Origin: Phlegmacium glaucopus
Lineage: Eukaryota > Basidiomycota > Agaricomycetes > Agaricales > Cortinariaceae
Direction of reading: 5' to 3'
Length of the DNA: 64,000 nucleotides
Assembly: GCA_015039465.1 (NCBI GenBank)
Contig: MU130497.1
Location: forward strand, 437,878 to 501,877
The notes under the pieces were generated by a model that was given only the letters and a program-made list of their open reading frames with translations, did no database searches and was not told the origin of the DNA. A program made the position numbers and the translations under genes. Below are positions 12,022 through 64,000 of the stretch, in pieces. Position 1 is the first letter of the stretch. Every line of letters begins with the position of its first letter.

Positions 12022-15000
12022 ATGAAGCGCATTTTCAACAAATTTGTCAAGCCCAAGAAACCAAAATCTTCATCTCTGACCATCAACGATGCTCTGGGTT
12101 CAAGCCCTAAACCAGCAACTTCGACATCGACAATCACAACAACCACTGCTCACTCCATGCCATCCGTTCCTGTTAGCGCTGCTGCTGAAAGCGCACAAGT
12201 TATTCAAGTCGCTGGCGTTACTGTGAGCGTTCAAGTTCGCCCATCGTATCCTCAAGTATTTAATCATCGTCATCCATCAGATTGTCCATGACCTCGCAGT
12301 CTCTACTTCGGCTTCTGCTCTGGTACTGGATGATCTTGCTCCTATAAGCGTTCCAGACACTGGCGTTCATGTGAGTGTTCAACTTACCCCATCACATCCA
12401 TAATTACTCACTGGCAATCCTCATCGTCGATCAGACTACGCATGAACTTCAAGTCTCCACTTCGGTTTCCACTTTGGCGGTTACACCTGTAGCCCGTCCA
12501 GAAGGAAATTCGCCCTCCTCGTCTGATGCCGTAATGCAAGCTAACTTGAGATCCACTGAATCCGAACAAAATCCCTCTGTGAGTTGCTTACACCAGGTGT
12601 TCTCGGCTTTCGCTAATGATCAGCAGGCTCAACAATCTGTCTTGGGTGTCTTTGCGAATGCCCAGAATATCCTCATCACTGGCGGCACTTTCGTGAGTCT
12701 TTCTCATTGGTTGTGGGTATAATCCAGCAATAATTGTACATACAGAACATTAGTCTGCCTGCCAACAGTGGTGAAAGGCAGATAAATATCCTTGTGACTC
12801 AAAAACCTAACTCCAGTCCAATCTTTACTGGACGGCAAGATGTACTTGATAAACTTTGGACGATTTTTGTTCATCATAATACAAGTAGACTGATGCCAAG
12901 GTGCTCATGTCTCCTCTGGGGACTGGGAGGGATTGGCAAGACCCAGATTTCTCTCAAGTTCATAGAGGAAATGTCTGACCAGTAAGGGTTCTTAATTTGC
13001 CATTCACAACATTAGATTCATTTCTTGTTAGTTTTTCACATGTGTTCTGGATTGATGCCTCCTCACAGGAGAGCATGAAAATGTCTCTCAAGGGTATATC
13101 TACCCTTCCTGCTGCACAAGATTCTGGAGTGGATGGCTCAGTTGAGTCTGTCCTCCAGTGGATATCTTTTCTCCAAGAAGAATGGTTGATTGTGTTTGAT
13201 AATGCTGATGATCCTCCTCCAGAGGTGGTGGCCAAGTTCTTCCCTCCAGGTGACAGAGGGAATATTCTAATTACTAGCAGAAATCAATCCATGGGAAGGA
13301 TTGTATCATTTGAGAACAAAATTGAGATCCATGAAATGGAGGAGGCAGATGCTATAACTCTACTTCTTAAGGCTGGCTGTTTGGAGCCATTGCCTGAGCA
13401 TCTACAAGCTGCTAAAAAGATTGTGACTGAACTTGGCTGCATTCCTCTTGCTGTTAATCATGCTGGTGCCTACATTGAGGCTGGGAGATGTGATATTGAT
13501 AAATATCTGAGACAATTCTCAGTACATCGTCATGCTCTTATGTCAGATGCTACATTCACAGGAGCATCAAAGTATGATAGAACAGTGTATGGGACTTGGG
13601 ATCTGTCTTTCAAAGAGATAGAAAGGAGGGCTGGTGGACATTCCACTGCTGGAGATGCACAGGCAGCACAGGCTGCAATCCTAATTCTTCAAATATGTGC
13701 TTTCTATCATCATAGCAATATTTCTAAAGAGATATTCCAATCTGCTGCTGAGGAGGCCATCAAACATGTTGTTGATAGTGACATAGCTCAAAGGTTGCCT
13801 CAGGCAGTCACATTACTAGATCATACTCTGCTTAGCCTGGACAATGATGGTCACTGGGATGACTTCATCTTTGGACAAGGAGTTAGTATTCTCCTCTCTT
13901 TCTCCCTGATAAAAAGAGGACAGCCATCTAAAATGTTATCTGTTCATCCTCTGGTGCACTACTGGAGTGGGGAGAGAATGTTAAAGTCTGAGCAGCAAAG
14001 AATGTGTGAGATGGGAAGCATAATCTTGTCATGTGCAATTCCATGGGGATTTAAAAGTGAGGATTATGCACTGCGACGGTTGATTTGTCCACATATTAAG
14101 GCAAATGAATTACATGGAAGGGAGGTAGGACTTATCAAGCAGTACTATGATGATAAATGGACCAAATTTGCACTAGTAATGTGGGAGAATGGAGACTGGG
14201 ACAATGCAGAGCAGCTGGAGGTTCAAGTTATGGACATGAGAAAGAAGGTGCTTGGTGCAGAACATCCAAACACCCTCACCAGTATGGCAAATCTAGCAAG
14301 CACATACTGGAATCAGGGAAGGTGGAATGAGGCAGAGCAACTGCAGGTTCAAGTTATGGACATGAGAAAGAAGCTGCTTGGTGCAGAACATCCAGACACC
14401 CTTACTAGTATGGCAAATCTAGCAAGCACATACAATGATCAGGGAAGGTGGAATGAGGCAGAGCAACTGGAGGTTCAAGTTATGGACATGAGGAAAGAAG
14501 CTGCTTGGTGCAGAACATCCAGACACCCTCAACAGCATGACAAATCTAGCAGGCACATACAGCCATCAGAGAAGGTGGAATGAGGCAGAGCAGCTGCAGA
14601 TTCAAGTTATGGACATGATGAAGAAGCTGCTTGGTGCAGAACATCCACACACCCTCAGCAGTATGGCAAATCTAGCAAGGACATACAGGAATCAGGGAAG
14701 GTGGAATGAGGCAGAGCAGCTGCAGGTTAAAGTTATGGACATGAGAAAGAAGCTGCTTGGTGCAGAACATCCAAACACCCTCAACAGTATGGCAAATCTA
14801 GCAACCACATACCATCTTCAGGGCAGGCAGAATGAGGCAGAGCAGCTGGAGGTTCAAGTTATGGACATGAGAAAGAAGCTGCTTGGTGCAGAACATCCAG
14901 ACACCCTCACCAATATGGCAAATCTAGCAAGCATATACAGGCATCAGGGAAGATGGAATGAGGCAGAGCAACTGGAGGTTCAAGTTATGGACATGAAAAA

Positions 15001-16784
15001 GAAGGTGCTTGGTGCAGAACATCCAGACACCCTCATTAGTATGGGACATCTAGCAAGCACATACCGGAATCAGGGAAGGTTGAATGAGGCAGAGCAACTG
15101 GAGGTTCAAGTTATGGACCTGACAAAGAAGTTGCTTGGTGCAGAACATCCAAACACTCTCACCAGTATGGCAAATCTAGCATCCACATACCATAATCAGG
15201 GAAGGTGGAATGAGGCAGAGCAGCTAGAGGTTCAAGTGATGAACATGACAAAGAAGCTTTTTGGTGCAGAGCATCCACACACCCTCTTAAGCATGGGCAA
15301 ATCTAGCAAGCACATACAGGCATCAGGGAAGGTGGAATGAGGCAGAGCAGCTAGAGGTTCAAGTTATGGACATGACCAAGAAGCTGCTTGGTGCAGAACA
15401 CCCACACACCCTCATCAGTATGGCACATCTAGCAAGCACATACAGCAATCAGGGAAGGTGGAATGAGGCAGAGCAGCTGGAGGTTCAAGTTATGGACATG
15501 ACCAAGAAGCTGCTTGGTGCAGAACATCCAGACACCCTCACCAGTATGGCAAATCTGGCAAGCACATACTGGCATCAGGGAAGGTGGAATGAGGCAGAGC
15601 ATCTGGAGGTTCTAGTTATGGACATGAGCAAGAAGCTGCTTGGTGCAGCACATCCATACACCCTCACCAGTATGGCAAATCTAGCAACCACATTCAGGGA
15701 TCAGGGAAGATGGAATGAGGCAGAGCAGCTGGAGGTTCAAGTTATGGACATGAGGAAGAAGCTGCTTGGTGCAGAACATCCAGACACCCTCACCAGTATG
15801 GCACGTCTAGCAAGCACATACTGGCATCAGGGAAGGTTGAATGAGGCAGAGCAGCTGGAGGTTCAAGTTATGGACATGAGGAAGAAGCTGCTTGGTGCAG
15901 AACATCCAGACGCCCTCTTTGGTATTGGACATCTAGCAAGCACATACAGGCATCAGGGAAGGTTGAATGAGGCAGAGCAACTGCAGGTTCAAGTTATGGA
16001 CATGAGAAAGAAGCTGCTTGGTGCAGAACATCCAGACACCCTCACCGGTATGGCAAATCTAGCAAGCACATACAGGCATCAGGGAAGATGGAATGAGGCA
16101 GAGCAACTGGAGGTTCAAGTTATGGACATGAGGAAGAAGCTGCTTGGTGCAGAACATCCAGACACCCTCACCAGTATGGCAAATCTAGCAAGCACATACT
16201 GGAATCAGGGAAGGTGGAATGAGGCAGAGCAGCTGGAGGTTCAAGTTATGGACATGAGAAAGAAGCTGCTTGGTGCAGAACATCCAGACACCCTCACCAG
16301 TATGGCAAATCTAGCAAGCACATACAGCCATCAGGGAAGGTGGAATGAGGCAGAGCAGCTGGAGGTTCAAGTTATGGACATGAGAAAGAAGGTGCTTGGT
16401 GCAGAACATCCAAACACCCTCATTAGTATGGGAAATCTAGCAAGCGCATACTGGAATCAGGGAAGGTTGAATGAGGCAGAGCAACTGGAGGTTCAAGTTA
16501 TGGACATGACAAAGAAGCTGCTTGGTGCAGAACATCCAAACACCCTCACCAGTATGGCAAATCTAGCAAGCACATACAGCCATCAGGGAAGATGGAATGA
16601 GGCAGAGCAACTGGAGGTTCAAGTTATGGACATGAGAAAGCAGCTGCTTGGTGCAGAACATCCAGACACCCTCAACAGCATGGCAAATTTAGCAATCACA
16701 TACCATCTTTAGGGCAGGCAGAATGATGCAGAGCAGCTGAAGCTTGAAGTCATCAACATAATGAAGAAAATAGGAAGAGACTGA
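12022..16784 (+). pseudogene. NLR-like NB-ARC protein with 20 TPR repeats, frame broken
   Basis: Modelled exons are 12022-12222, 12281-12370, 12435-12692, 12746-12981 and 13032-16784. Restoring the frame would give about 1,511 residues. The N-terminal ~180 residues are low complexity (MKRIFNKFVKPKKPK...) and end with NILITGGTF. The NTPase has a P-loop GLGGIGKT (about 12920), a kinase-2 strand EEWLIVFDNADD (about 13180), ILITSRN, a GLPL-like CIPLAVNHAGAY and an HPLVHYW motif (about 13945). Twenty 42-residue TPR-type repeats (NEAEQLEVQVMDMRKK, GAEHPDTL) follow. Proteins of this architecture are fungal STAND/NLR-like receptors thought to act in non-self recognition or cell death. Lesions: one extra base near 14493, one near 15295, and CAG to TAG at 16710 in the last repeat; the original C terminus VINIMKKIGRD ends at 16784. 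If the extra bases are assembly errors, the gene would be nearly intact. Confidence 0.85.
14200..16730 (+). repeat. 20 tandem 126-bp TPR-coding repeats
   Basis: The 126-bp unit codes for 42 residues and recurs twenty times without spacer, followed by a partial unit. Most differences are confined to a few positions, for example DTL/NTL/HTL after AEHP and YW/YR/YS/YH before the QGR motif. Such homogeneity suggests unequal crossing-over or gene conversion. CpG is almost absent: I count eight in 13032-16784. Confidence 0.95.
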
Positions 16785-19334: not shown

Positions 19335-22300
19335 ATGTCGTTCTCTGTCCCGACGTCGCCTGCCATGTCCCGCTCAACAAAAGCGCAGCCAGTCACTCCT
19401 CAGCGTTTGCCCCGACAGCAGCCCCGTTCTCAGATATTGTACAGGTCACCCCTTACACCCTCAACAAGTCCCTATACACCCCTTAGTCTGCGTTCAATAG
19501 ACTCGACAGGCTCGTCAACTTTGACGACACCGGATAATATTGCAATTAACGTGAAAAAACGCCTCAATTTCTCCTCTGTTTCACCCGATGGGGGACGTAA
19601 CTTAACCTCATCTAAAGATAAGAGCCTTGCAGACATCGCAGACAATTGGAGGTCTCGTGCAAACGAGAATGGAATCAAAGTTTCGTTCTCAAATGATGAT
19701 TCTAACTATCAGGCGGACAGTTGTGAGCGCATATATTTGCTCATGTGCCGTTTCATTGACTAACAATGCGCATATAGCTAGTGATATGTCCATCTCTGAT
19801 GTCGCCAATGACTCTAGCGTTCTCTCAACAGAACAAGGTATAATTTTTTTTTGTCAAAATTTGCTGCATATATGCTGACCTTAGTCTAGCCCTTCTTTCA
19901 GCACCAGCTCTCTCAAATCATCGACGACACTATAGTGTTCCAATCACTGGGAGGCCAAGAGCTCAGTCCAATGTCTCTATGCCCACCTCGCGAACGCAAC
20001 CCTTTTCGCCTATAACTACACGCTCCGCTGGTCGTCTGCCGCAGACGATATCCCCTCTGCAACCTCGCCGCAACAATTCGTCCTTCAATCACTCGGTAAA
20101 CTTAATGTCCACTCCACCCCCCAATCGCGCTCTAGCTAGGCAGCTAAAGCTTAAAGGAAGTTTGACCGATCCCGCGCAACCAAGAAGGCGCGAAGCCTTT
20201 GGAGCTGTACGTTTGTCTCCTTCTCTTACTGCATTCCGTTCAGAAGCTCAAGTATTTTGTCCATTATTAAGCTTTCTATCTCATCACAAAATGTTGGACA
20301 TCGAAACCCAAACATGAGCATAACATTAGAACCTGATACTTCTCTCGACTTATTTGACATTGACGAAAATGATGAGCAAGACTACCCAGGCCCGGAACTC
20401 GAAGATTCCTTTTCTCGTAGTCTCCACGCTCACAATGCAACCACATTCGGATACCCAACCTTCAAGCCTCATCAGCATGGACATCAACCGGTTTATTCGA
20501 GCTCAGTGACTTTTGCTGATCCTTTCCAACCCATGGGGGTTGCCCATGGTCTCTCGAGCGGACATGTTCTTGGCAGCATCGCGGAAAGCGTTGAACAACA
20601 TTTTCATGCAACCCGCCAGCAACCCATCTATAACCCGTTTTATCAAGACCGTCATCAGCACCCGCATGATTTCTTTTCGCAGGCCACTCGTGCTCAACCT
20701 CAATATGGCCAGAGCATGCCTCATGCGTATCCCACTCCGTCCTTCGTGCCCCTTCCTCAAGCATCTATGTTACCATTCCACGCTGCTCCAATGCAACCCA
20801 AACCAACTCAGGAACGAGCCTTCGTTGCCCCAAGTATCCGACCGCTCACTCCTGTCATGCTTTCGGAGCAATCTGCGCCTCCTTCCGATTGTTCCGTTTG
20901 CCTTGCGCCACGCCCTTCTACCCTTGCTATCTTACAGCCTTGTAAACATCCTCTCTGTTCTGGGTGTTTAACAAGTGCGTTGAACATCGTTGGCGAAAAA
21001 GATATGCAATGCGCTGTCTGCAAACAAAGTGTCGCCGACTTTAAATTAGTAATTGGATCAACCAAAGGAGACATAGGAGGCGCTTCTCGTGCGGACGCAG
21101 AACAGACAAGGATCGAGGCAATCAAACCGTCTCATAACGAGAAAACTGGGTCTGATATGGCAGGCAAATCGTTCATGGACCCACTTCTTTCAGTTTCTCC
21201 TGGCAGTTCGACTACTTATGATCATGAGAACTCAAGTCGTAGCGTAGGAGACCTGGACAGCGCGTTTGAGTTTGGCCTTGATTTTGGTGAACTCCGCGCT
21301 TCTACCCCCAAAATAGAGCACCAAATGCAGGATACCTGTCCATCGGCGATGACTGGCCAACGAGAGATAGTTAAAGGAGAGAATTACGTCGTCTTGAGAA
21401 TTGATAATGTTCCTTGGGTAAGATCCCATTTCATTTGTTGATTTTAAGCCAGATGTTGATTGATTGACGTTTGTGGTTGTTCTACAGGATATTACCCCAA
21501 CTCAGATCATTAGATGGCTTCAGCAACCGGTGGAGAGGGTTCATGTACTCCTGGATGGGAAGGGTAAGACGCTCAGTCATGCCTACGTTGAAGTTAAAGA
21601 CCCTGCCATTGCTGGGGCGATCCTTAGAGGCGAGGCCCAGCCTGTGGGTCCCACCGGTAAAAAAGAGAGAGGCAGCGTGCTCGGTCGAGGACGACGAGCT
21701 CGTGGTGTCACGATAACTAGGAGCGGACAACAAGAACTGATGACCGATGTTCGTCGGCTTTCCCCTTCTTTTATGTATGAATAAAAGCTCACAACCTCTT
21801 TCTCAATAGTTGTTCCCTCATTGGCGTGGACGTTTTGCCGGTTCCAGGCCTTCGCTTGCCGGACTTGAAGGCGATAGAATCATTGGCGCTTTGGAAGGAG
21901 GCCTTTTGACTGAAAATGAAATTTCTGGGTTGCTGCATCTCATTCGGGAACCTGATGTCTGTCATTCGTTTCATTCCTTCGATCGTTTTACGTGAGCTGA
22001 CGATTCGTTTTGTTGACTTTCAGTCACATTTTCTGAAAGTGCCATCGCTGCCTTTCCATTCTCTCATCAGCTTGTTGACTAAGTTCCCTGTTGATGTGGA
22101 TAGTCGTGTGTTTTGGTCGACAGGAATAAGGGATGCGTTGTTTGGTATGTTTTTTTCATGTTCTTGTTGCTGGAGATTGAGTTCGATTTCACCTCAACTT
22201 CTGATTTTAGATGGTGCATATAGTGAGTAGCGACTTTCCCTTGTTCACCGGTATCTTTGGCTAAAGCAGCGTCCTCTTTCTCAGCTGCCCTTCAGAACCT

Positions 22301-42888: not shown

Positions 42889-45509
42889 TTAAAAGAACTC
42901 ATCGTAGCTGGAGGATGATTTGTCACGACTACCTCCCCTACTACCGCCTTGCCTACTGCCGCTACCACCATAGCTTGGTTTATCATCGCGAGAGCTATAT
43001 GTGGAGGATGTGTTACCGCTTCGAGGAGTAAAAGGTCGAGAGCCATAAGAAGATGTGCTACCACTTCGAGGAGTATAGGGTTTTGAGTCACGAGAGCCAT
43101 AAGAGGATGTGCTACCACCACTTCGAGGAGTATAACTGTTTGAATCACGAGAGCCATATTGAGAGGAGGATGCTCGAGGAGTAGAGCTGTTTGAGTCACG
43201 GGAGCCATATGAGGAGGATGCTCGAGGAGTATAGCTGTTTGAGTCACGGGAGCCGTATGAGGAGGATGCACGAGGAGTATAGCTATTTGAGTCACGGGAG
43301 CCGTATGAGGAGGATGTGCGAGGAGTATAGTTTGAGTCACGGGAGCCGTATTGAGAGGATGATCGAGGAGTATAGCTATTGGAGTCACGGGAGCCGTATG
43401 AGGAGGAGGAGGATCCATAGCCGCCTGACCGTTGACCATAAGACGAGCCGCCTGTACCAGTCCTCGAAGCCTGGCTCCCGCGTCCTACCCAGCTGGCGCG
43501 TGCAGATCCATAAGAGCCCGTTCCACGGTTAAACGAGCGATTATTGTTACTACCACCGCCCCCTAATAATCCTAACCTCATTTGCGCTCCATGGGGAACG
43601 ACAGGTGGCTGGTCCAATCCGAATACTTCCTGAGTCCAAGCCTGCAGACCAGAAACTACTTCATCCTTGTTCAAACCCAATTCACCAATACGGCCAAGGT
43701 AAAAGCCAACTTGGGCCATGAAAGTTTCATGAGGAGCATCCGGGTCCACAGCCTTTGCGGTAATCCGACAAGTAGGGTCGATCTCGGCCAATCGAAGTGA
43801 GTAGATGGGTTCCTTGCCTGGTCCAGCGTTTTCCGCATCCTTTGACATTGCGAGCTCCTTAGTCTGTTCTTCCAAGGCACTCATAGTGAGAGGTTTGAGA
43901 GGCATGCTGCGAAGTTGTCTTCTCATGAATCCCATCTCCCAGGAACAGAGTACTAGATCTCCACGACCCGTTTTGTTGTCTCCTCGTCCAGTACGTCCTA
44001 CTCGATGGATATACATATCACCACTCGCTGGTACACCCATCTGGATGACACGAGATACTCCGGGATAATCGACTCCACGAGCAGAAACATCGGAAGTAAC
44101 AAGGATAGCTGCGCCAGACGTATCATTCCTGAAGTTCTTGGAAACCGCCATTCGCCTGTCCATATCCCGCTTGGAGTGCATCTCGTACACCTTGGTCTTG
44201 TTACCAGAGGGGAGAATCTTAGGCCCCGCTTTGACGAGGAAGGAAGAGAATAATTGTACACTCCTCGTCGTAGAAAAGAAAACGATGATTTTGGATTTAT
44301 TTCCCAAGGAGAGTTGATCATGTGTGATCAAACGAAGGAGATGAGGGAAGAATTGCGAAGGGTCTGAAAGGATGGTGTGGTATTGCGGGATGTGATCATG
44401 CACCGGTGAGTCGTCCTCAGAAACGCAGTTGATGTATTTGTGGCCGCTTGATAGGGTGGAAAGGGCCACCTGGCGAATAGCTGGAGAGACGGTGGCAGAG
44501 AACAGGAATGTTTGACGTTCGGGAGAGTTAGGCAGGTATGACTTGATGCTTTCGATGTCATCTCTAAAACCCATGTGAAGTAGAGTGTCCGCTTCATCAA
44601 GAATAAGCTAATTTAGAAAGATTTTAGTTTTAGGTGTCCAGCGAAAGGAGAAGAGAGAAAAAAAAGACTAACCACTTGTGTATGTTTCATAGCAGCAGAA
44701 AATTCCGGTTCTGATTCGAGGAGATCCAATACACGACCCGGAGTGCAGACAACGATGTCTTTGCGACCTTGCCAGTCCCTGATTTGCCTAGCCCTGCTTT
44801 CACCTCCAAGAAGAACACGAACTTGAAACCCGACATGCTTTGCTGTCAAATTGGTAGCTTCAACTGCGATTTGGGTTGCAAGCTCTCTTGTAGGACTGAC
44901 GATAAGTGTGCCAACACGTTCAGTAGCATAGCGGTTTATAGCTTTAGCCTTGAACTGGGGAGTAACAGTGATGCCGCTGTCGGTTAATGAACTCTCGACA
45001 TGTGCGTCGATGGCTTTTAATCGAGCCTCGATAGCGGGAATGAGGAAACCCATAGTTTTACCGGTTCCTGTTTTGGCTTTGACAAGTAAATCCCGAGGCT
45101 TGTCTTTTGTACGGAGAGTGGAAGGGTCGTATGGCAGGGCAAGGTCAGGGAGGAGAGGAAAAATGCGTGCTTGGACGGGCGACATATGTGTGTGCTTGAT
45201 AGCTTTTAGAGTGTTTGGGTGTAAGACACCTTGAAGAGTCTCGAATGAGGTGGGATCAAGGCCTTGGTCGCTTTCCAGACTCTCCTCGTTTTCTATGGGT
45301 TGCGTTGCGGTAGATGCATGCCGTACTAGCAATGCTAGACGAGGTTGAACTAGGAGCAGGTAAGTCTTCGTCAATATAGTATAAGATTTTTTTTGCTTAC
45401 GACGCGTTCTTGAAGTGCAGACGACAAACGAGCGACGAAGAACCGGAGCAGAACGAACTGCTCTGGCTGGACAGGCCTTAGCAGCCAGCGCTCTTAATGC
45501 ATATGCCAT
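42889..45509 (-). CDS. MSS116: mitochondrial DEAD-box RNA helicase, Mss116-like
   Basis: Exons 45401-45509, 44673-45349 and 42889-44607 on the minus strand. The start MAYALRALAAKACPARAVRS is basic and free of acidic residues, a likely mitochondrial presequence. Helicase motifs: HMSPVQARIFPLL (Q-like), AKTGTGKT (motif I), PTRELATQ (Ia), TPGRVLDLL (Ib), LDEADTLLHMGF (II, DEAD), LFSATVS (III, SAT), IIVFFSTT (IV), VTSDVSARGVDYPGV (V) and YIHRVGRTGRG (VI). The C-terminal ~150 residues are Gly/Ser/Arg-rich, with about ten YGSRDSNSYTPR-type repeats and an RGGSRGGS patch for RNA binding. This layout fits Mss116/Cyt-19-type group I/II intron chaperones. The symbol is by similarity; another mitochondrial DEAD-box paralogue is possible. 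An in-frame ATG at 45587 is less likely because it would add an acidic/aromatic leader. Confidence 0.85.
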
Positions 45510-45614
45510 TGTTGTTGAAGCCACGAGCAGAGGGCTTGAGCGGCCTTTGAACTGGAATTTTTCAAAAAAAATGTGACCATAACCCAAAAAGGCAATCCAG
45601 TTATTCCATCAATG

Positions 45615-50095: not shown

Positions 50096-53000
50096 ATGTC
50101 TACTTCATCGGAACCCCAACTCACTCCTGAGCAGATTAAGAAACTGCAGGCAAAGTTTGCTCGATTCCGTATCCTCGTGATTGGGCGAGCCAACGCAGGC
50201 AAGACAACAATCCTGCAAAGACTCTGCAACACTACAGGAGAACCTATGATCTTTAGTCCGAATGGTCGAAAGGTGAGGCATATTGTGAAAGTTCGTGCCA
50301 GATGCTGACATCCATGCCCATGATCTCAGATCAAGTCCTCGGTCCTTAATCCATCGATGGGGGTAAGCAGTTTCTTTACTAGTATTGGGGTTATAGTTCA
50401 ATCAATATCGTCACACCACAGCGTGGAGAGCATGACATCAAGAATCAAATGATATTTAAGAGCAATCCTGGTTTTATCTTTCATGATGCCCCTGGTTTTG
50501 AAGCTGGCAGTGCTCAGGAGTTGAAGATGGTACAGGAGTTCATTAAGGAGCGTTCGAGGGCAAGGAGTGTCAAGGAGCAGCTTCATGCAATCTGGTGTGT
50601 TGGTACTCGCCTTAGAGAACAAATTTCTTGACAGAAAAATGTTTTGCGTAGGTACTGTATCCCAACGAGTGATGATCGGCCAATCACGGCAGCGGAAAAG
50701 AAATTTTTCATTGAATGTGGGACAGGGCTTGGTATGTGTACTATCTTACCAATATGTTACCGTGAAAAATAAGGCCATGAAGTGCCAGTGATTGTTTTGT
50801 GGACGAAGACCGACTCTCTTGATGTTGCTAAAATCAAGCAACTCATGAAGGAAGAAGGTAATAGTAGGGCTGAGGCAATGCAACAAGCTCCTCAAAGAGC
50901 TTGGACTGATTTTGAACAGAGTATTCATCAACAGTTTGAAGAATTTAAATATCCACCAAAGGCATATGTTGTCTTTCGAAGTAAGTGTTATACTTGTTAA
51001 AAACTATTTGGCTAATTGTGTGACATAGAGATGCATGAGCCTGGAGCTGATTGTAAAGACTTGATTGAAAAAACAGCAGCTGCACTGTCTAGTGAAGAAT
51101 TACAACAACTCTTTCTTTCAACACAGCAAAACAATATGGAGGTGTGTATTAAATATGGGGTTAAAAGGTTGGGAACTATGATATTTTTAAACTCTGACAT
51201 TAACATAACTCCTAGACTTTTGAACCAGGCGGGATCAACAATTTTTAAAGGAAATTGGGTATATATCATGGTATTTGCTCTGACATATTTTCCACAAATT
51301 GTAGTATGTCTTTGAGAAGACTAAAGAATCCATTAACAACTGATTTATTTTGTAGGGTGTTATCTTAAGCATTTAGTGCTCAACACTTTGGACTGACATA
51401 TACTACAACAGTATGTGTGTACAAAAAGAGTCATCAATATTTATGTTGCTTGTTACCTGAAATTTTTTGACAGATTGTAAGTGCAGGACCTTCTTGATTT
51501 GCCTCTAGCTTACTCTTTTTGACAGTATGTAAGTGCAAGACCATCTTGATCTGCCTTGACTCTAGCTTACTCTTTTGACAGGATGTAAGTGCAAGACTAT
51601 CTTGATCTGCTTTGACCCTAGCTTACTCTTTTGACAGGGAGTAAGTGCAAGATCATCTTGATCTGCCTTGACTCTAGCTTACTCTCTTGACAGGGAGTAA
51701 GTGCAAGACCATCTTGATCTGCCTTGACTATAGCTTACTCTTTTGACAGTCTGTAAGTGGAAGACCATCTTGATCTGCCTTGACTCTAGCTTACTCTTTT
51801 GACAGTCTGTAAGTGCAAGCCATCTTGATCTGCCTTGACTCTAGCTTACTCTTTTGACAGTCTGTAAGTGCAAGACCATCTTGATTTGCCTTGACTCTAC
51901 CTTACTCTCTTGACAGTGGGTAAGCGCAAGACCATCTTGATCTGCCTTGACTCTACCTTACTCTTTTGACAGGGAGTAAGTGCAAGACTATCTTGATCTG
52001 CTTTGACTCTAGCTTACTCTTTTGACAGGGAGTAAGTGCAAGACCATCTTGATCTGCCTTGACTCTAGCTTACTCTTTTGACAGGATGTAAGTGCAAGAC
52101 CATCTTGATCTTGATCTGCCTTGACTCTAGCTTACCCTTTTGACAGTTGGTAAGTGCAAGATTGTCTTGATCTACCTTGACTCTAGCTTACTCTTTTGAC
52201 AGTGGGTAAGTGCAAGATCATCTTGATCTGCCTTGACTCTAGCTTACTCTTTTGACAGAAGGTAAGTGCAAGACCATCTTGATCTGCCTTGACTCTAGTT
52301 TACTCTTTTGACAGTTGGTAAGTGCAAGACCATCTTGATCTGCCTTGACTCTAACTTACTCTTTTGACAGTCTGTAAGTGCAAGACCATCTTGATCTGCC
52401 TTGACTCTAGCTTACTCTTTTGACAGAAGGTAAGTGCAAGACCTTGATCTGCCTTGACTCTACTTTACTCTTTTGATAGGATGTAAGTGCAAGACCATCT
52501 TATCTTCCTTGACTCTACTTTACTCTTTTGACAGTCTGTAAGTGCAAGACCATCTTATCTTCCTTGACTCTAGCTTACTCTTTTGATAGAAGGTAAGTGC
52601 AAGACCATCTTGATCTGCCTTGGCTCTAGCTTACCCTTTTGACAGTTGGTAAGTGCAAGACTATCTTGATCTGCCTTGACTCTAGCTTACTCTTTTGACA
52701 GGAGGTAAGTGCAAGACTATCTTGATCTGCCTTGACTCTAGCTTATTCCTTTGACAGGATGTAAGTGCAAGACCATCTTGACCTGCCTTGACTATAGCTC
52801 ACTCTTTTGACAGGAGGTAAGTGCAAGACCATCTTTATCTGCCTTGACTCTTGCTTATTCTCCTGACAGTCTGTAAGTGCAAGACCATCTTATCTTCCTT
52901 GGACTCTAGCTTACTCTTTTGACAGTTGGTAACTGCAAGACCATCTTGATCTGCCTTGGACTCTAGCTTACTCTTTTGACAGTTGGTAAGTGCAAGACCA

Positions 53001-54404
53001 TCTTGATCTGCCTTGATTCTAGCTTACTCTTTTGACAGTCTGTAAGTGCAAGACTATCTTGATCTGCCTTGACTCTACTTTACTTGTTTGATAGTTGGTA
53101 AGTGTAAGACCATCTTGATCTTCCTTGACTCTAGCTTACTCTTTTGACAGTTAGTAAGTGCAAGACCATCTTGATCCTGCCTTGATTCTAGCTGATTCTT
53201 TTGACAGTTTGTAAGTGCAAGACCATCTTGATCTGCCTTGACTCTAGCTTACTCTTTGACAGAATGTAAGTACAATACCATCTTGATCTGCCTTGACTCT
53301 AGCTTACTCTTTGGACAGAGGGTAAGTGCAAGGTTATCTTGATATGCCTTGACTCTAGCTTACTCTTTTGACAGAATGTAAGTACAACACCATCTTGATC
53401 TGCCTTGACTCTAGCTCACTCCTTTGACAGTTGGTAAGTGCAAGACCATCTTGATCTGCCTTGACTCTAGCTTACTCTTTTGACAGGAGGTAAGTGCAAG
53501 CACAGACAAGTCTTGATTATTCTGTCACCCTCTTTTATTCATATTTGGACAGATTGTAAGTGCACCAATTATATCTTCATTTCTGCTAACCTAATTGGCA
53601 TATATTTTGCACAGTATGTATGTTGATTATGTAATGTTATTTATCAATTACTCCATGACTTACATTTCTCAACAGCAAGTATGTGCAGTAATTTCTGATT
53701 TGTCTTGTTTTCTGCTTATCTATGTAATACCTTTGCTTACAGATAGTAAGTACAATTACTCTTAACTTCTCTTTTTCATCTCTGTAATAAATATCATTTG
53801 GTAATTTTTTTTCCCTCATTCTCATCTCTGTACTGACTTGTTTTATCTAGTTTTTATATATTTTGATGTACAGCATTCTTTCTCCAAAATTATGTCACCC
53901 ATTGTGAGTGTTTGCTCTTTGGCACTACAACTGGCAAAAGTGGCTCATTTCATTCATCTTCCAAATTTTTTCAAGCTTTCCAATCTATCTACCGAATTCA
54001 ACTTAAAAGAAGCTACATACTGTGCAATTGGCATGCATCCAATTCAACCTTTTTCACACCCTCCACAATACTGACTTTTACTATTAGTTGCAGCTATTAT
54101 TGGCCACTTGTCTTTCTTCCTTTCTCAAAAATCACCAAGCACAAAAGACTCTTTACAAAGAGCTGTTCAAATTTATCAGCAATCAACTTGTGATGCCTCT
54201 GTCAAGCAAGCCATTGAAAGGATTTTTGAACTTGAAAATATTTCCAAAGGCCCTCAGGCAACAAGTCATGTCAAACATACATTCCCAAATCCTTTCAAAC
54301 GCTTCTTGCACGTTGATGATGTCAATTGTGAATTACTGGTTGAGGAGGCTATACAGACTGCATTGAATAATCTCTTGTGTATGGATTCAATTCTTGTTTG
54401 TTGA
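50096..54404 (+). CDS. G-domain GTPase with a single-codon microexon array
   Basis: Exon 1 (50096-50272) encodes MSTSSEPQLTPEQIKK and the G1 loop GRANAGKTT (residues 30-38). Exon 2 (50330-50362) gives IKSSVLNPSMG. Exon 3 holds the G3 motif DAPGFEAGS (residues 92-100). Later exons carry HAIWYCIP and the G4 motif WTKTD (164-168), then a helical region ending at STQQNNMEVCIKYGVKR and LLNQAGSTIFKGNW (residue ~284). From 51279 to 53873 about 45 introns surround 44 three-base exons. The gene resumes at 53874 with HSFSKIMSPIVSVCSLALQL and, after an intron ending 54097, IIGHLSFFLSQKSPSTKD to the stop at 54402. This C-terminal helical part fits the same agaricomycete GTPase family, in which it normally follows directly. 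Total about 480 residues if all microexons are used. The splice joining GVKR to LLNQ uses a weak GTTGGG donor and is my least certain join. Function unknown; AIG1/septin-like superfamily P-loop. Confidence 0.78.
51279..53873 (+). repeat. tandem array of ~45 introns separated by 3-nt microexons
   Basis: The core unit is 56 nt: GTAAGTGCAAGACCATC, then TTGATCTGCCTTGACTC, then TAGCTTACTCTTTTGACAG (donor, YTNAY branch-like sites, pyrimidine tract, acceptor) followed by three variable bases. I read 44 triplets: TCT x7, TTG x7, TAT x4, GAT x4, GGA x4, AAG x3, GAG x3, ATT x2, TGG x2, AAT x2, and GGT, TTA, TTT, AGG, CAA and ATA once each. None is a stop. Outer introns (51279-51525 and 53500-53873) are diverged in sequence and length, yet each is still followed by exactly three bases and a new GT donor. 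All are phase 0. CpG is essentially absent. Confidence 0.9.
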
Positions 54405-55619: not shown

Positions 55620-56242
55620 CCTGCGGTCAGGACAGACCACAAGTAGTTATGTAGTGTATGGGGTTGATGTAGTTCTCTTTGATAGGTGAAAGTGAGCTTT
55701 TATGAGGTGTGAAGGTTTGCTTTAAAGTGCGAGATAATGCACAGAAAAAGTGAAGTTTGCAGGATGATTTTCAAGGAGTGCAAGAGTAGCTTAGTACAAT
55801 GTTCCAAAGGTGGGATCAAAACTGTGGTAATTTTGTCTGTTCTCCTCTGTTGCTTTACATTACTTGCTACTGCTAATAATATAGTAACTAGCAAATAGCT
55901 AAGTGCAGAAAGGAAACAGAAATGTAAAATGCGGGTTAAAGCGGAGTCACATGGATCTGGTAATTTGGTAATGAAACATAGGAGATAAGAGCCAAATAAA
56001 AGGAGACAAGATAAAAATAAAGGTGATGAGTAATAAAGTCACCTGAGTGGCCCTCATTGGAGTTGTGTTTAAATATTGCAAGAACAGCTGGCAACTGCAA
56101 ATGATAATGCAAATGTTGGTGATGACTGCAAGTATCTGCAATGATCTGCAATGATCTGCAAGTATCCACAATGATATGTGAGCATCTGCAAGTATACTGT
56201 GAAGGTTGTGAAACTGCAAAAATGGTGCATTTACATCCCTAG
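55620..56242. repeat. dispersed repeat D, copy 1
   Basis: About 600 bp nearly identical to 62876-63520, for example GGGGTTGATGTAGTTCTCTT, GAGGTGTGAAGGTTTGCTTT and ATAATATAGTAACTAGCAAA. The right part has repeated GCAATGATCTGCAAGTATC units. It ends GTGCATTTACATCCCTA, whose complement TAGGGATGTAAATGCAC looks like a hAT end. Non-coding. Confidence 0.82.
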
Positions 56243-59142: not shown

Positions 59143-61170
59143 TGTACTTTACAGTCCCCCACGTTGTCTGGCCGGAGTCCAGCGGACTCCACTAAAATTC
59201 CAGTAAAAGTCCGGTGAGAGTCCGGTGAGAGTCCGGTCAGAGTCCGGTGAAAGTAGAAAAATGCCTGGACTGTATCTCTGGTCACAGTCCGCCGGACTTT
59301 TGATAGAATTTAGGGTTATATTTAGATTTAAAGGTTAGGCTTAGGGTTATATTTAGATTTAGGGCTTAGGATTAATATTTAGGGATGGGGATATTTTCTG
59401 TCTGCGCGGTGATAGGACTGAAAGTTGAATACCTATGGATTATTCAATTTTTCATAATATTATTCTTCAATTGAATCAACAAGATCAATAACCCAACCAT
59501 GAATTAATCTACAAATTGATATTGAAAGGGTCAAAAGTGTTGACTACACTTGTTGATTAAACTGGAAATTGCATAGTAATAAATGTTAAAGCAGCAGATA
59601 ACTATGATCTGAATTGATCTATTTATCATACTGTTAAATAACACTACAAAAAGTTCAGACTCTAACCATACAAAATCCATAATGGTCAAATGAACTACTT
59701 GCAATCTAAAGTAACTATCAAAGTCTACAACTATGAAGGATTGTTATACAAGTCCTAAGGATAACATCAGTAAATCAAATATCAATAAAAGGTCCTAATA
59801 ATGAAGCATGTGATATCATGTGACATCATGTGACATCATGTGATACCATGTGATACCATGTGACATCATGTGACATTTTGTGACATTATGAAACATATGA
59901 CATCATAAAACAATGATCAGTCATCTAGAAACAAGACATGACATCATAAAACAATGATCAGTCATCTAGAAACAAGACATGACATCATAAAACAATGATC
60001 AGTCATCTAGAAACAAGACATGACATCATAAAACAATGATCAGTCATCTAGAAACAAGACATGACATCATAAAACAATGATTTATCATCCAAAAACAAGA
60101 CATGACATCATAAAACAAAACATGACATCATAAAATAGCATCAGTAATCATAAAACATAGACATGACATCACAGACTCTTACCTAATTTTGTTTCTCATT
60201 TATGTATAAAAGTAGCTAGAAAGCACCAGTAAAATTAGTGAATTTGCACTCTTCCTTTCTTTCCCAAGTTTCAGCGCTCTGAATTGGCACAAGTTAGAAT
60301 TGGAATTACAAGTGGACTTGCTTTGCTTCACTCAGTTCAAAGGGTATTAAATCCTAAAGGGGCTTACCTTTGTTCTGTGTAAACCAAGAATATTAAATCC
60401 TTTAGGGACTTGTCTTGGAAGCAAGGATATTAAATCCTTTGTCAGAGTCTGAGGATAAAACCTTGTACTATAAAGCTGTCTCACAGTCTGCCTCAGGGAC
60501 TTTAAATCATTTGTTGTGGATAGTCAAAGAATATTAAACCCTAAAGGGGCTTGTCTTTGTACTACCAAAATTGGTTATCATATAGACAAAGGATATTAAA
60601 TCCTATAGGGACTTGCCTTTGTTCTATCAAAAAGCACTATATAATAGTCTAAGAAATTGGACTATAAACTTGTTATCAGAATCATAGTCTAGAACATTTG
60701 GACTTTAAAAGTGTATTGTTGTTTTATTCAAGAGTATACTGGTTATACTTTCAAGGAAACCCCAACTTGCACAAAAACAGAGTTTGTTGGTCATTAAAGT
60801 TACTGGTTTCTGGATTTGTTGTAGACAATTCCTAAAATAGTAATCCTTTGATTACCATATAAAAACAAACTCAACCACATCAGCGGTAGCGCATTCTTAG
60901 GTTAGGAGGGGATACAGGCATGTTTTGTACTTCCACCGGACTTCTGCCGGACTTCCACCAGACTTCTGCCGGACTTCCACCAGACTTCTGCCGGACTTCC
61001 ACCAGACTTCTGCCGGACTTCCACCAGACTTCTGCCGGACTTCCACCAGACTTCCGCCGGACTTCCACCGGACTCTGACCAGACTCTGACTGGACTGTTC
61101 TGGAGTCTGGTGGAGTCTGGTCAGTCCAGCGGAATTCTGGCCAGACAATGTGGGGGAGTGTAAAGTCCTC
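59143..61170. mobile_element. 2.0-kb non-autonomous DNA element nested in MITE copy 3
   Basis: 2,028 bp bounded by a 9-bp target duplication GGTTTTTTG (59134-59142 and 61171-61179); undisrupted MITE copies have this sequence once. Its ends share ACTTTACA(G/C)TCCCCCAC in inverse orientation. Sub-terminal regions are packed with AGTCCGGTGAG (left) and ACTTCCACCAGACTTCTGCC (right, about 22-bp repeats at 60940-61070). A 9-bp duplication points to a Mutator-like or related superfamily. No transposase frame. A related end is at 63521. Confidence 0.85.
59820..60135. repeat. short satellites inside the nested element
   Basis: First a ~10-bp ATGTGACATC repeat (59810-59890), then about five copies of a 42-bp unit containing GACATCATAAAACAATGATC and AGTCATCTAGAAACAAGACAT (59900-60110). 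Farther right (60340-60620) a looser ~60-bp period contains ATTAAATCCT...GGGGCTTGTC(T)TTGT. Confidence 0.9.
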
Positions 61171-62875: not shown

Positions 62876-63520
62876 CCTGCGGTGGGGACAGACCGCAAGT
62901 AGTACATAGTTTGTGGGGTTGATGTAGTTCTCTTCGGTAGGTGATAGTGAGGTTTTATGAGGTGTGAAGGTTTGCTTTAAAGTGCAAGATAATGCACAGA
63001 AAACACAAAGTTTGCAGGATGATTTTTGAAGGAGTGCAAGAGTAGCTTAGTATGATGTTCCAAAGGTGGGATCAAAACTGTGGTAATTTGTCCATTCTCC
63101 TCTGTTGCTTCCCCTTACTTGCTACTGCTAATAATATAGTAACTAGCAAATAGCTAAGTGCAGAAAGGTGAAACAGAAATGTAAAATGCGGGTTAAAGCA
63201 GAGTCACATGGATCCAGTAATTTGGTAATGAAACATAGGAGATAAGAGCCAAATAAAAGGAGACAAGATAAAAATAAAGGTAATGAGTAATACAGTCACC
63301 TGAGTGACCTTTATTGGAGTTGTGTTTAAATATTGCAAGAACAGCTGGTAACTGCAAATGATAATGTGAATGTTGGTGATGACTGCAAGTATCTGCGATG
63401 ATCTGCAAGTATTCTGCGATTATGTGCAAGTATGTGCAATGATCTGCAATGATCTGCAATGATCTGCAAGTATCTGCAATGATATGTGAGCATCTGCAAG
63501 TAATACTGTGAAGGTTGTGG
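62876..63520. repeat. dispersed repeat D, copy 2
   Basis: Matches 55620-56215 closely. It is cut at GTGAAGGTTGTGG by the element end starting at 63521. Confidence 0.82.
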
Positions 63521-64000
63521 TGTACTTTACACTCCCCCACGTTGTCCGGTGGACTCCGGCCGGACTCCGCTAGTCCGGTGGAAGTCCGGTGGACGTCCAC
63601 CGGACTCCACTAAATTCCACTGGACTCCGCTAAAAGTCCGCTAAAAGTCCGGTCAAAGTCCGGTGGAAGTCCGGTGGAAGTCCGGTCAAGCAAAAATGAC
63701 TGGACTGGCATGTCCGGTCAGAGTCCACCGGACTTTGACCGGACTTTTAGCGGACTTTTAGCGGACTTTTAGCGGACTTTTTATAATTTCAAGGAAGTTG
63801 TATAGCTGATGCCTGCTGACTAACATTATATCTATATGTATATATGATTTATTTATTTGTTCAGCTTCTGTTACATGTGTATGTATGTACAATTTATTTA
63901 TTTATTTATTTATTCAGCATCACTATGATCATTGTCATTTTTATTTTTTTGTTGCTTGATAACATTTCTTGTTTGATAAAAAAGCATTATATGTATAAAC
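63521..64000. mobile_element. left part of a second 2-kb-type element, runs off the window
   Basis: Begins TGTACTTTACACTCCCCCAC, matching the left end of the element at 59143, followed by dense AGTCCGGTGGA / GACTTTTAGCGG sub-terminal repeats to about 63780. The right end is beyond the window. Confidence 0.75.

Follow-up and report, generated by a model that had tools for sequence, protein, structure and literature searches.

A GTPase gene of Phlegmacium glaucopus, on the forward strand of the 64,000-nucleotide (nt) stretch analysed here (called the window; all bare coordinates refer to it, and it lies on contig C171 of the 60.5-Mb genome that was searched), contains an array of 42 triplets, each standing between an AG and a GT of its own. 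The explanation that we favour, and hold to be highly probable as a whole, growth and mechanism of the arrays included, is that these 42 codons would be spliced one by one into a hypervariable linker. From the sequence, we infer that the array is spliced, that all its codons are included and that they are translated, given the avoidance of stop codons, the exact exon length of 3 nt, the hypervariable triplets beside conserved introns, the recurrence of the design with unrelated introns, a locus (L051) in which the introns are not repetitive, and the linkers of transcript-like homologues. The first-pass annotation had proposed such a codon-by-codon linker in an array of 44 triplets; the array stands, with 42 triplets well supported.

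The 42 single-codon exons (TAT ATT TAT GAT ... CAA ATA) and the 41 introns between them occupy positions 51412-53745, and AG precedes and GT follows in 42/42 triplets (starts 51412 to 53743). These introns measure 49 to 64 nt, with a mode of 53, and Tandem Repeats Finder (TRF) delimits a repetitive core at 51499-53500 with 35.7 copies of a 56-bp period, that is, a 53-nt intron plus a 3-nt exon. The array is entered through an intron of 108 nt (51304-51411) and left through one of 128 nt (53746-53873). A strict motif scan of 51201-53920 found a spacing of 3 in 40 units and of 9 in one, and no spacing of 0-2 or 4-8; a splice-site parser in which exon length was free (1-30 nt) returned 3 nt for 37/37 internal exons, bearing out the earlier observation that three bases always separate an acceptor from the next donor. 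The phase-0 frame without a stop was likewise recovered: with the 42 triplets included, the spliced frame is open across 469 amino acids. The 5' border had to be moved, on the other hand. The TGG placed at 51278 lies at 51256-51258, and 51259-51303, which had been read as the beginning of the first intron, is coding (..WVYIMVFALTYFPQIV, ending at 51303) and is coded at full length in some paralogues; the first array donor is therefore at 51304. A further triplet within the first array intron, GGT at 51356-51358, was left as a doubtful array exon, since the distance from AG to the motif G[TC]TATCTT is exactly 3 nt in 8 of the 12 loci that have this motif and different in the other 4.

A genome search with the window array gave 64 places, which by eye form about 40 clusters; 34 of these were read. 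The array statistics given here (parser, stop codons, identities, block duplicates) concern the window and loci L009-L036, that is, 29 loci and 30 arrays, L025 being split in two; L001-L008 overlap L009-L036 and were left out, and L037-L055 are treated separately. We call the introns of these arrays family A. Over the 30 arrays, 1383 of 1395 parsed mini-exons measure 3 nt and 8 measure 6 or 9 nt, so that 1391/1395 have one of these three lengths; the other 4 we judged by eye to be three GC donors located 3 nt past the acceptor and one mis-scored acceptor. The parser imposed no exon length; its site profiles came from training on units with a spacing of 3, a point that we count against our explanation. 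A simple search for GACAG-N-GTRAG through these 29 loci found spacing 3 in 820 cases, and spacings 1, 2, 4 and 5 in none. The parsed introns are by comparison of loose length (43 to 135 nt); of 1425, 34 reach at least 100 nt, and 14 of those 34 have an AG-NNN-GC inside.

Stop codons are nearly absent from the array codons. Only 2 were found among 1407, both TAG (in L023 and L036), against 130.5 expected (standard deviation 8.3) when each codon position was shuffled within each array; the minimum in 2000 such shuffles was 99 stops. The avoidance of TAG (2 observed, 76 expected) could come from its acting as a second acceptor, but CAG, equally a competing acceptor, shows only slight depletion (9 observed, 14 expected), and GAG occurs often (139). 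Several kinds of triplets containing GT are also depleted, as is expected if donors must stay unambiguous. A TAA noticed in the L033 array proved to be an artefact, caused by overlap in the regular expression. Among the 1407 family A codons, 0.2% have C as their third base; this near-absence may reflect deamination, given that a C before GT makes a CpG, or a splice-site preference.

The introns are conserved and the codons are not, which, with the avoidance of stops, marks the array as something beyond an inherited repeat. Taking only units with 53-nt introns, as was also done for block duplicates, neighbouring units (594 pairs) have a position identity of 0.83 in their introns versus 0.36 in their triplets. 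The introns are arranged in a star-like manner around a single consensus: their similarity drops with distance only from 0.833 to 0.803, and it has the same level within loci (0.833) as between them (0.827). In young arrays, runs of exactly identical introns are found beside differing codons, for example ATT TTG GAG TTT GAG GAT in L039. Eight young arrays together show at least 52 changes in 315 nt of codons versus 41 distinct changes in 8049 nt of introns, an approximately 32-fold excess, which is inflated by the choice of these arrays as the youngest, with two older ones, L041 and L046, left out. The assembly of the youngest arrays may be incomplete: at L039 (C220:189400-194000) an inverted second copy adjoins the gene and 386 N mark an assembly gap, and L037 and L040 also contain N.

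Fast codon change in every array is unsupported by these data, as block duplicates of older arrays retain their codons. We recognised 44 pairs of block duplicates, 35 of them from L025, and outside L025 the codons are equal or differ by one base in 8/9 pairs. L035 and L036 show 98% identity along 738 downstream bases, yet have only the last array units in common. Codon diversity seems to arise while arrays are young or being made, a timing that we derive from the retention of codons in older block duplicates. How it arises is a question on which two views compete. One, to which we grant slightly less than an even chance, does without any special mutation: recombination within the array would keep introns alike, and selection would retain new codons. 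Both the block duplicates and the L035/L036 pair agree with it, as does L049, described below, where 21 exact introns surround only three types of codons and where a few changes plus copying could suffice. It accounts less easily for the 32-fold excess of codon changes (a ratio which, as said, the choice of young arrays inflates), and for the frame-breaking spacers present in young arrays, a feature not to be expected from selection for good codons. The other view, triplet-targeted diversification, is taken up with the mechanism.

Conservation of the splice bases is mixed. In 1177 units located by the intron core alone, the G at position 1 is changed in 7.6% and the G at position 53 in 9.5%, versus 17.3% for a core G, and any of the four splice bases is changed in 22.9% of the units versus 43% expected, indel shifts included.

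Paralogues have such arrays at the same site, and in distant paralogues the same architecture is built from introns unrelated to family A. Family B has a 73-nt intron (L045, L046, L050), family C a third kind of intron (L047, L052, L055) and family D a 67-nt intron (L048, L049). L049 contains 21 exactly identical introns, which enclose 20 codons of only three kinds, GCT, GAT and TAT. A further seven AG-NNN-GT units are present in L053. The most telling locus is L051, where 11 AG-NNN-GT units were counted versus 0.2 expected from shuffles, with no units at spacings 0-2 or 4-6 and no tandem repeat found; the mean identity of its introns is 0.58, versus 0.54 after shuffling. In L051 the single-codon exons seem to have outlived the repeat, and its non-repetitive introns speak against a satellite that would be removed as one intron. 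L054 (C9:157380-158600) is a broken GTPase fragment, with no array seen in the stretch read; it continues into an open frame of unrelated sequence that includes GSAGTGKTTLA, resembling a P-loop, and that we take to have the look of a nucleoside triphosphatase of the NOD-like receptor (NLR) type. Over the whole genome, the family A consensus with at most 3 mismatches gave 366 matches (8 for the reversed control), and the matches listed lie on contigs that also match a G-domain exon, except for C128, the upstream part of which is an assembly gap. The patterns for the B and D introns gave 100 and 61 matches versus 30 and 45 in reversed controls, well above what chance would yield for patterns of this length, and the counts were not used.

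The star-like arrangement of the introns, their equal similarity within and between loci, and exact identity beside different codons would also be expected if identical mobile introns had been inserted between the codons of an ordinary exon that was already diverse. This scenario concerns the origin of the arrays and is compatible with codon-by-codon splicing; we regard it as unlikely. After insertion, exons of 6 nt, 9 nt or longer should be numerous, and only 8/1395 mini-exons were of this kind, although lengths up to 30 nt were sought. The family D codons located between exact introns all end in T (33/33) and belong to a few recurring types, as expected of copied units, and recognisable block duplications carry their codons along.

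The homologous proteins were examined at the array site. A protein search with the G domain gave 1460 matches, of which 120 were listed, and 3 were added by a later search. Of these 123 proteins, 107 are genome-derived and 16 we class as transcript-like on the basis of short contigs with uninterrupted open reading frames (ORFs). Among the genome-derived proteins, 26 end at most 35 residues from the start of a WFPH-type motif, 7 end 36-89 residues on and 6 at least 90 residues on, the motif being absent from 68; the corresponding numbers for the transcript-like proteins are 6, 1, 6 and 3. Annotated models stop at the array site or skip it in Phlegmacium, Suillus, Laccaria, Pisolithus and Serendipita; the arrays described here are those of Phlegmacium.

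Five proteins from uninterrupted ORFs on contigs of 1.1-2.3 kb (P0021, P0094, P0119, P0122, P0124) have a linker at the array site and a C-terminal part after it. P0094 and P0122 are identical at 64/79 residues before the linker, which is unalignable, and at 82/90 after it. P0106, whose contig measures 1695 bp, shares 353/354 residues up to WFPNTK with the model P0108 of Pisolithus tinctorius; P0106 then continues with DLPPYEQPQYQQQ.., 44 residues to its end, and P0108 jumps to the C-terminal part. Judging from this near-identity, the two probably represent one gene, the presumed transcript of which has a linker that is lacking from the gene model. We then compared eight linkers, excised by eye, with the composition of family A mini-exons: four of them (P0021, P0094, P0063, P0014) resemble it more than any control segment does, and that of P0007 nearly so, its score being reached by 4/4163 G-domain control segments. 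The C-terminal region of P0021 used as a query retrieved itself only, and that of P0094 retrieved 4 proteins, itself included.

In two other readings the codon sequence has no role. A regulatory array, in which expression is held back or prevented because splicing is slow or incomplete and the added codons may have any sequence, would fit P0004 and several gene models that extend a few residues past the G domain and then stop, but codons without effect should not outpace their introns in change, and we find it quite improbable. Least probable of all, to our mind, is the rival already raised in the first-pass annotation, a single satellite-built intron (51304-53873) removed whole, its triplets never being translated: the frame is kept either way and the annotated models P0010, P0092, P0123, P0082 and P0108 do cross the site with no comparable linker, but this scheme leaves unexplained the avoidance of stops, the exactness of length 3 while intron lengths vary, the hypervariable triplets between conserved introns (copies of an ordinary intronic satellite would diverge regardless of splice sites or frame, which is not what we see), the same design made from unrelated and from non-repetitive introns, and the transcript-like ORF linkers, one of which is missing from the model of what is probably the same gene.

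Several observations weigh against splicing codon by codon, and those five annotated models are the first of them. Frame-breaking spacers occur in young arrays, of 4 nt in L037, L039, L048 and L049 and of 2 nt in L038. The 4-nt spacers, each single, read GAGA, TGTG, GCAT and GTCT, and the 2-nt one AT; spliced in, they would shift the frame. Stops are present in L023, a gene whose exons carry further stops besides the array TAG, and in L036; L050 has a TGA between exact introns, and L047 a stop in an array that is degenerate and has 2-nt spacers as well. In the 1177 units mentioned above, the T at position 2 is changed in 11.3% versus 7.5% for a core T, and the A at position 52 in 11.8% versus 10.6% for a core A. 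L051 came to light through a weak exon 6 match (39% over 46 residues), in a gene that may not be intact. Among the homologues, the linkers of P0119 (95/3915), P0047 (144/4309) and P0106 (529/3811) do not stand out from control segments, and P0004, which has no G-domain introns, continues into what appears to be the first array intron (..LVVCV), suggesting that this intron may be kept in some RNAs. Finally, the 'jgi' and 'lgn' matches are transcripts by presumption, and 3-nt exons are a putative source of their linkers.

With these reservations, codon-by-codon splicing remains our preferred explanation, and the mechanism is likely as follows. One short intron after another would be removed, each recognised through intron definition, and every removal would leave one codon and expose the next donor. 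With all units in phase 0, the frame should be kept when any unit is omitted. Arrays would probably expand in tandem, by units whose introns are nearly identical, and triplets would be changed to other sense codons, either by codon-targeted mutation or by strong diversifying selection combined with intron homogenisation. On ageing, the introns would diverge while splice sites and 3-nt exons persist. Dozens of paralogues would result in which the G domain is conserved and the linkers are unrelated. A more far-reaching proposal, which we put forward tentatively and rate as rather less than an even bet, is that triplet-targeted diversification of single-codon cassettes in dozens of GTPase genes of mushroom-forming fungi constitutes an expandable hypervariable region, in other words an immune-receptor-like system built from introns, to which cassette choice could add in-frame isoforms. 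If cassettes were chosen freely, the window gene could in principle yield up to 2^42 of them.

The gene around the array is organised as follows. Its GTPase domain is made of seven exons, from the gene start at 50096 to ..YFPQIV at 51303. The first (50096-50272, with an open frame, GT-AG junctions and a similar sequence in P0002) starts the G domain and has the P-loop GRANAGKTT. The second (50330-50362) and the fourth (50652-50731) are supported by frame and junctions; the third (50422-50594) covers the G3 region, and the fifth (50783-50980) the G4 motif TKTD. Exon 6 consists of 6a (51029-51167, frame and junctions) and 6b (51216-51303, frame and paralogues), the latter being the final long exon 5' of the array; the 48-nt intron between them (51168-51215) is skipped also in the annotated paralogues P0002 and P0010. 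Downstream of the array, a first C-terminal exon (53874-53903) encodes HSFSKIMSPI, with DSISKIMSPI as its counterpart in P0010. A second (53976-54030), placed by its frame and by similarity to P0010, would be followed by a putative GC-AG intron, and the last exon (54094-54404) encodes the C-terminal domain and ends with the stop TGA.

The ratio of non-synonymous to synonymous substitution rates (dN/dS) indicates purifying selection on the G-domain exons, with 0.31 for exon 3 (window versus 21 loci) and 0.19 for exon 5 (versus 23 loci); it is 0.59 for exon 6 taken as a single piece and 0.56 for the last exon (versus 26 loci). The window protein matches the Pfam domain MMR_HSR1 with an E value of 9.6e-6 and 26.1 bits, above the cut-off of 21.9, and this score together with the P-loop and the TKTD motif places it among GTPases of that type. 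A PDB sequence search with the G domain gave no match. In the predicted model of P0021, confidence is high for the G domain and the C-terminal domain, and low for the linker, with a predicted local distance difference test (pLDDT) score of about 40-61. In a fold search with this model, immunity-related GTPases (Irga6/IIGP1, GM4951) came top and the dynamin-like BDLP was also present, with high root-mean-square deviations, and most immunity-related GTPase rows were close to rows for EngB and septins. The likeness to immunity-related GTPases and BDLP is that of a G domain plus a helical domain, by the predicted fold of P0021. The linker is likely to join the G domain to a C-terminal domain that is itself likely helical. 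By analogy with immune or self/non-self hypervariable regions, and because the linkers are hypervariable and the family is large, we infer that they may serve recognition.

Three known phenomena bear some resemblance to these arrays. Introners, or introner-like elements, are introns present in many near-identical copies per genome and scattered among genes; the likeness lies in many near-identical introns within one genome, and introners are not known to leave a run of 3-nt exons. At recursive splicing sites, removal is stepwise and regenerates a donor, as is proposed here, but is not known to leave any exon other than a skipped one. Dscam-type clusters, with which the arrays share a combinatorial potential, are made of full-size, mutually exclusive exons.

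Published cases of very short exons offer closer parallels. The micro-exon genes (MEGs) of Schistosoma are reported to have exons of mixed sizes (3-81 bp) and introns of up to 5 kb, and to code for secreted proteins (PMC10526429). They are likewise made largely of very short exons, whereas here nearly all array exons are one codon long, the introns are copied and of about 53-73 nt, and the gene encodes a GTPase. Like a MEG, the window gene has many very short coding exons in multiples of 3 (42 units of 3 nt), and it lies outside the schistosome family, given its MMR_HSR1 match and its homologues, for which the organism names among the matches listed (120 of 1460) are those of mushroom-forming fungi. 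In Trichoderma, another filamentous fungus, Xlr2 has one functional microexon that acts as a switch, and the opening of the abstract mentions no array (PMC11121469). A paper on dog PICALM reports a three-nucleotide exon in connection with a single-codon insertion (PMC4148152), that is, one single-codon exon there and an array here. The first-pass annotation knew of no described gene of this kind, and we found no prior description of single-codon exon arrays in the titles and abstract openings of the open-access literature, a scope that leaves bioRxiv preprints and most subscription journals outside.

If our explanation is true, the spliceosome would assemble a protein segment codon by codon over about 40 consecutive exons, and models of how introns and exons are defined could be tested on it. 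Sequence diversity would also have a new route, with the intron as copy-number machinery and the 3-nt exon as the variable part. Exons of 3 nt escape usual annotation, and the real proteins of the family may be widely misdescribed. Should the linkers recognise something, a new front would open on fungal self/non-self or pathogen recognition.

Elsewhere in the window, a second strongly repeat-built protein is encoded at 12997-16750, by ORFs rich in TPR_10 and TPR_12 with 20.2 copies of a 126-bp unit at 90%. An ORF at 20257-21441 has a RING-finger match barely over the cut-off (zf-C3HC4, 6.2e-5), and pieces of a DEAD-box helicase (DEAD, Helicase_C) on the minus strand at 42889-45587 overlap a 48-bp tandem repeat at 43123-43407. 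Segments 55980-56195 and 63237-63502 share a 21-bp repeat consensus and have similar 10-bp units, which suggests that they are a duplicated segment. Minisatellites of 11 to 22 bp, mostly with a CCGG-type core, are found at 59199-59254, 60929-61074 and 63596-63781.

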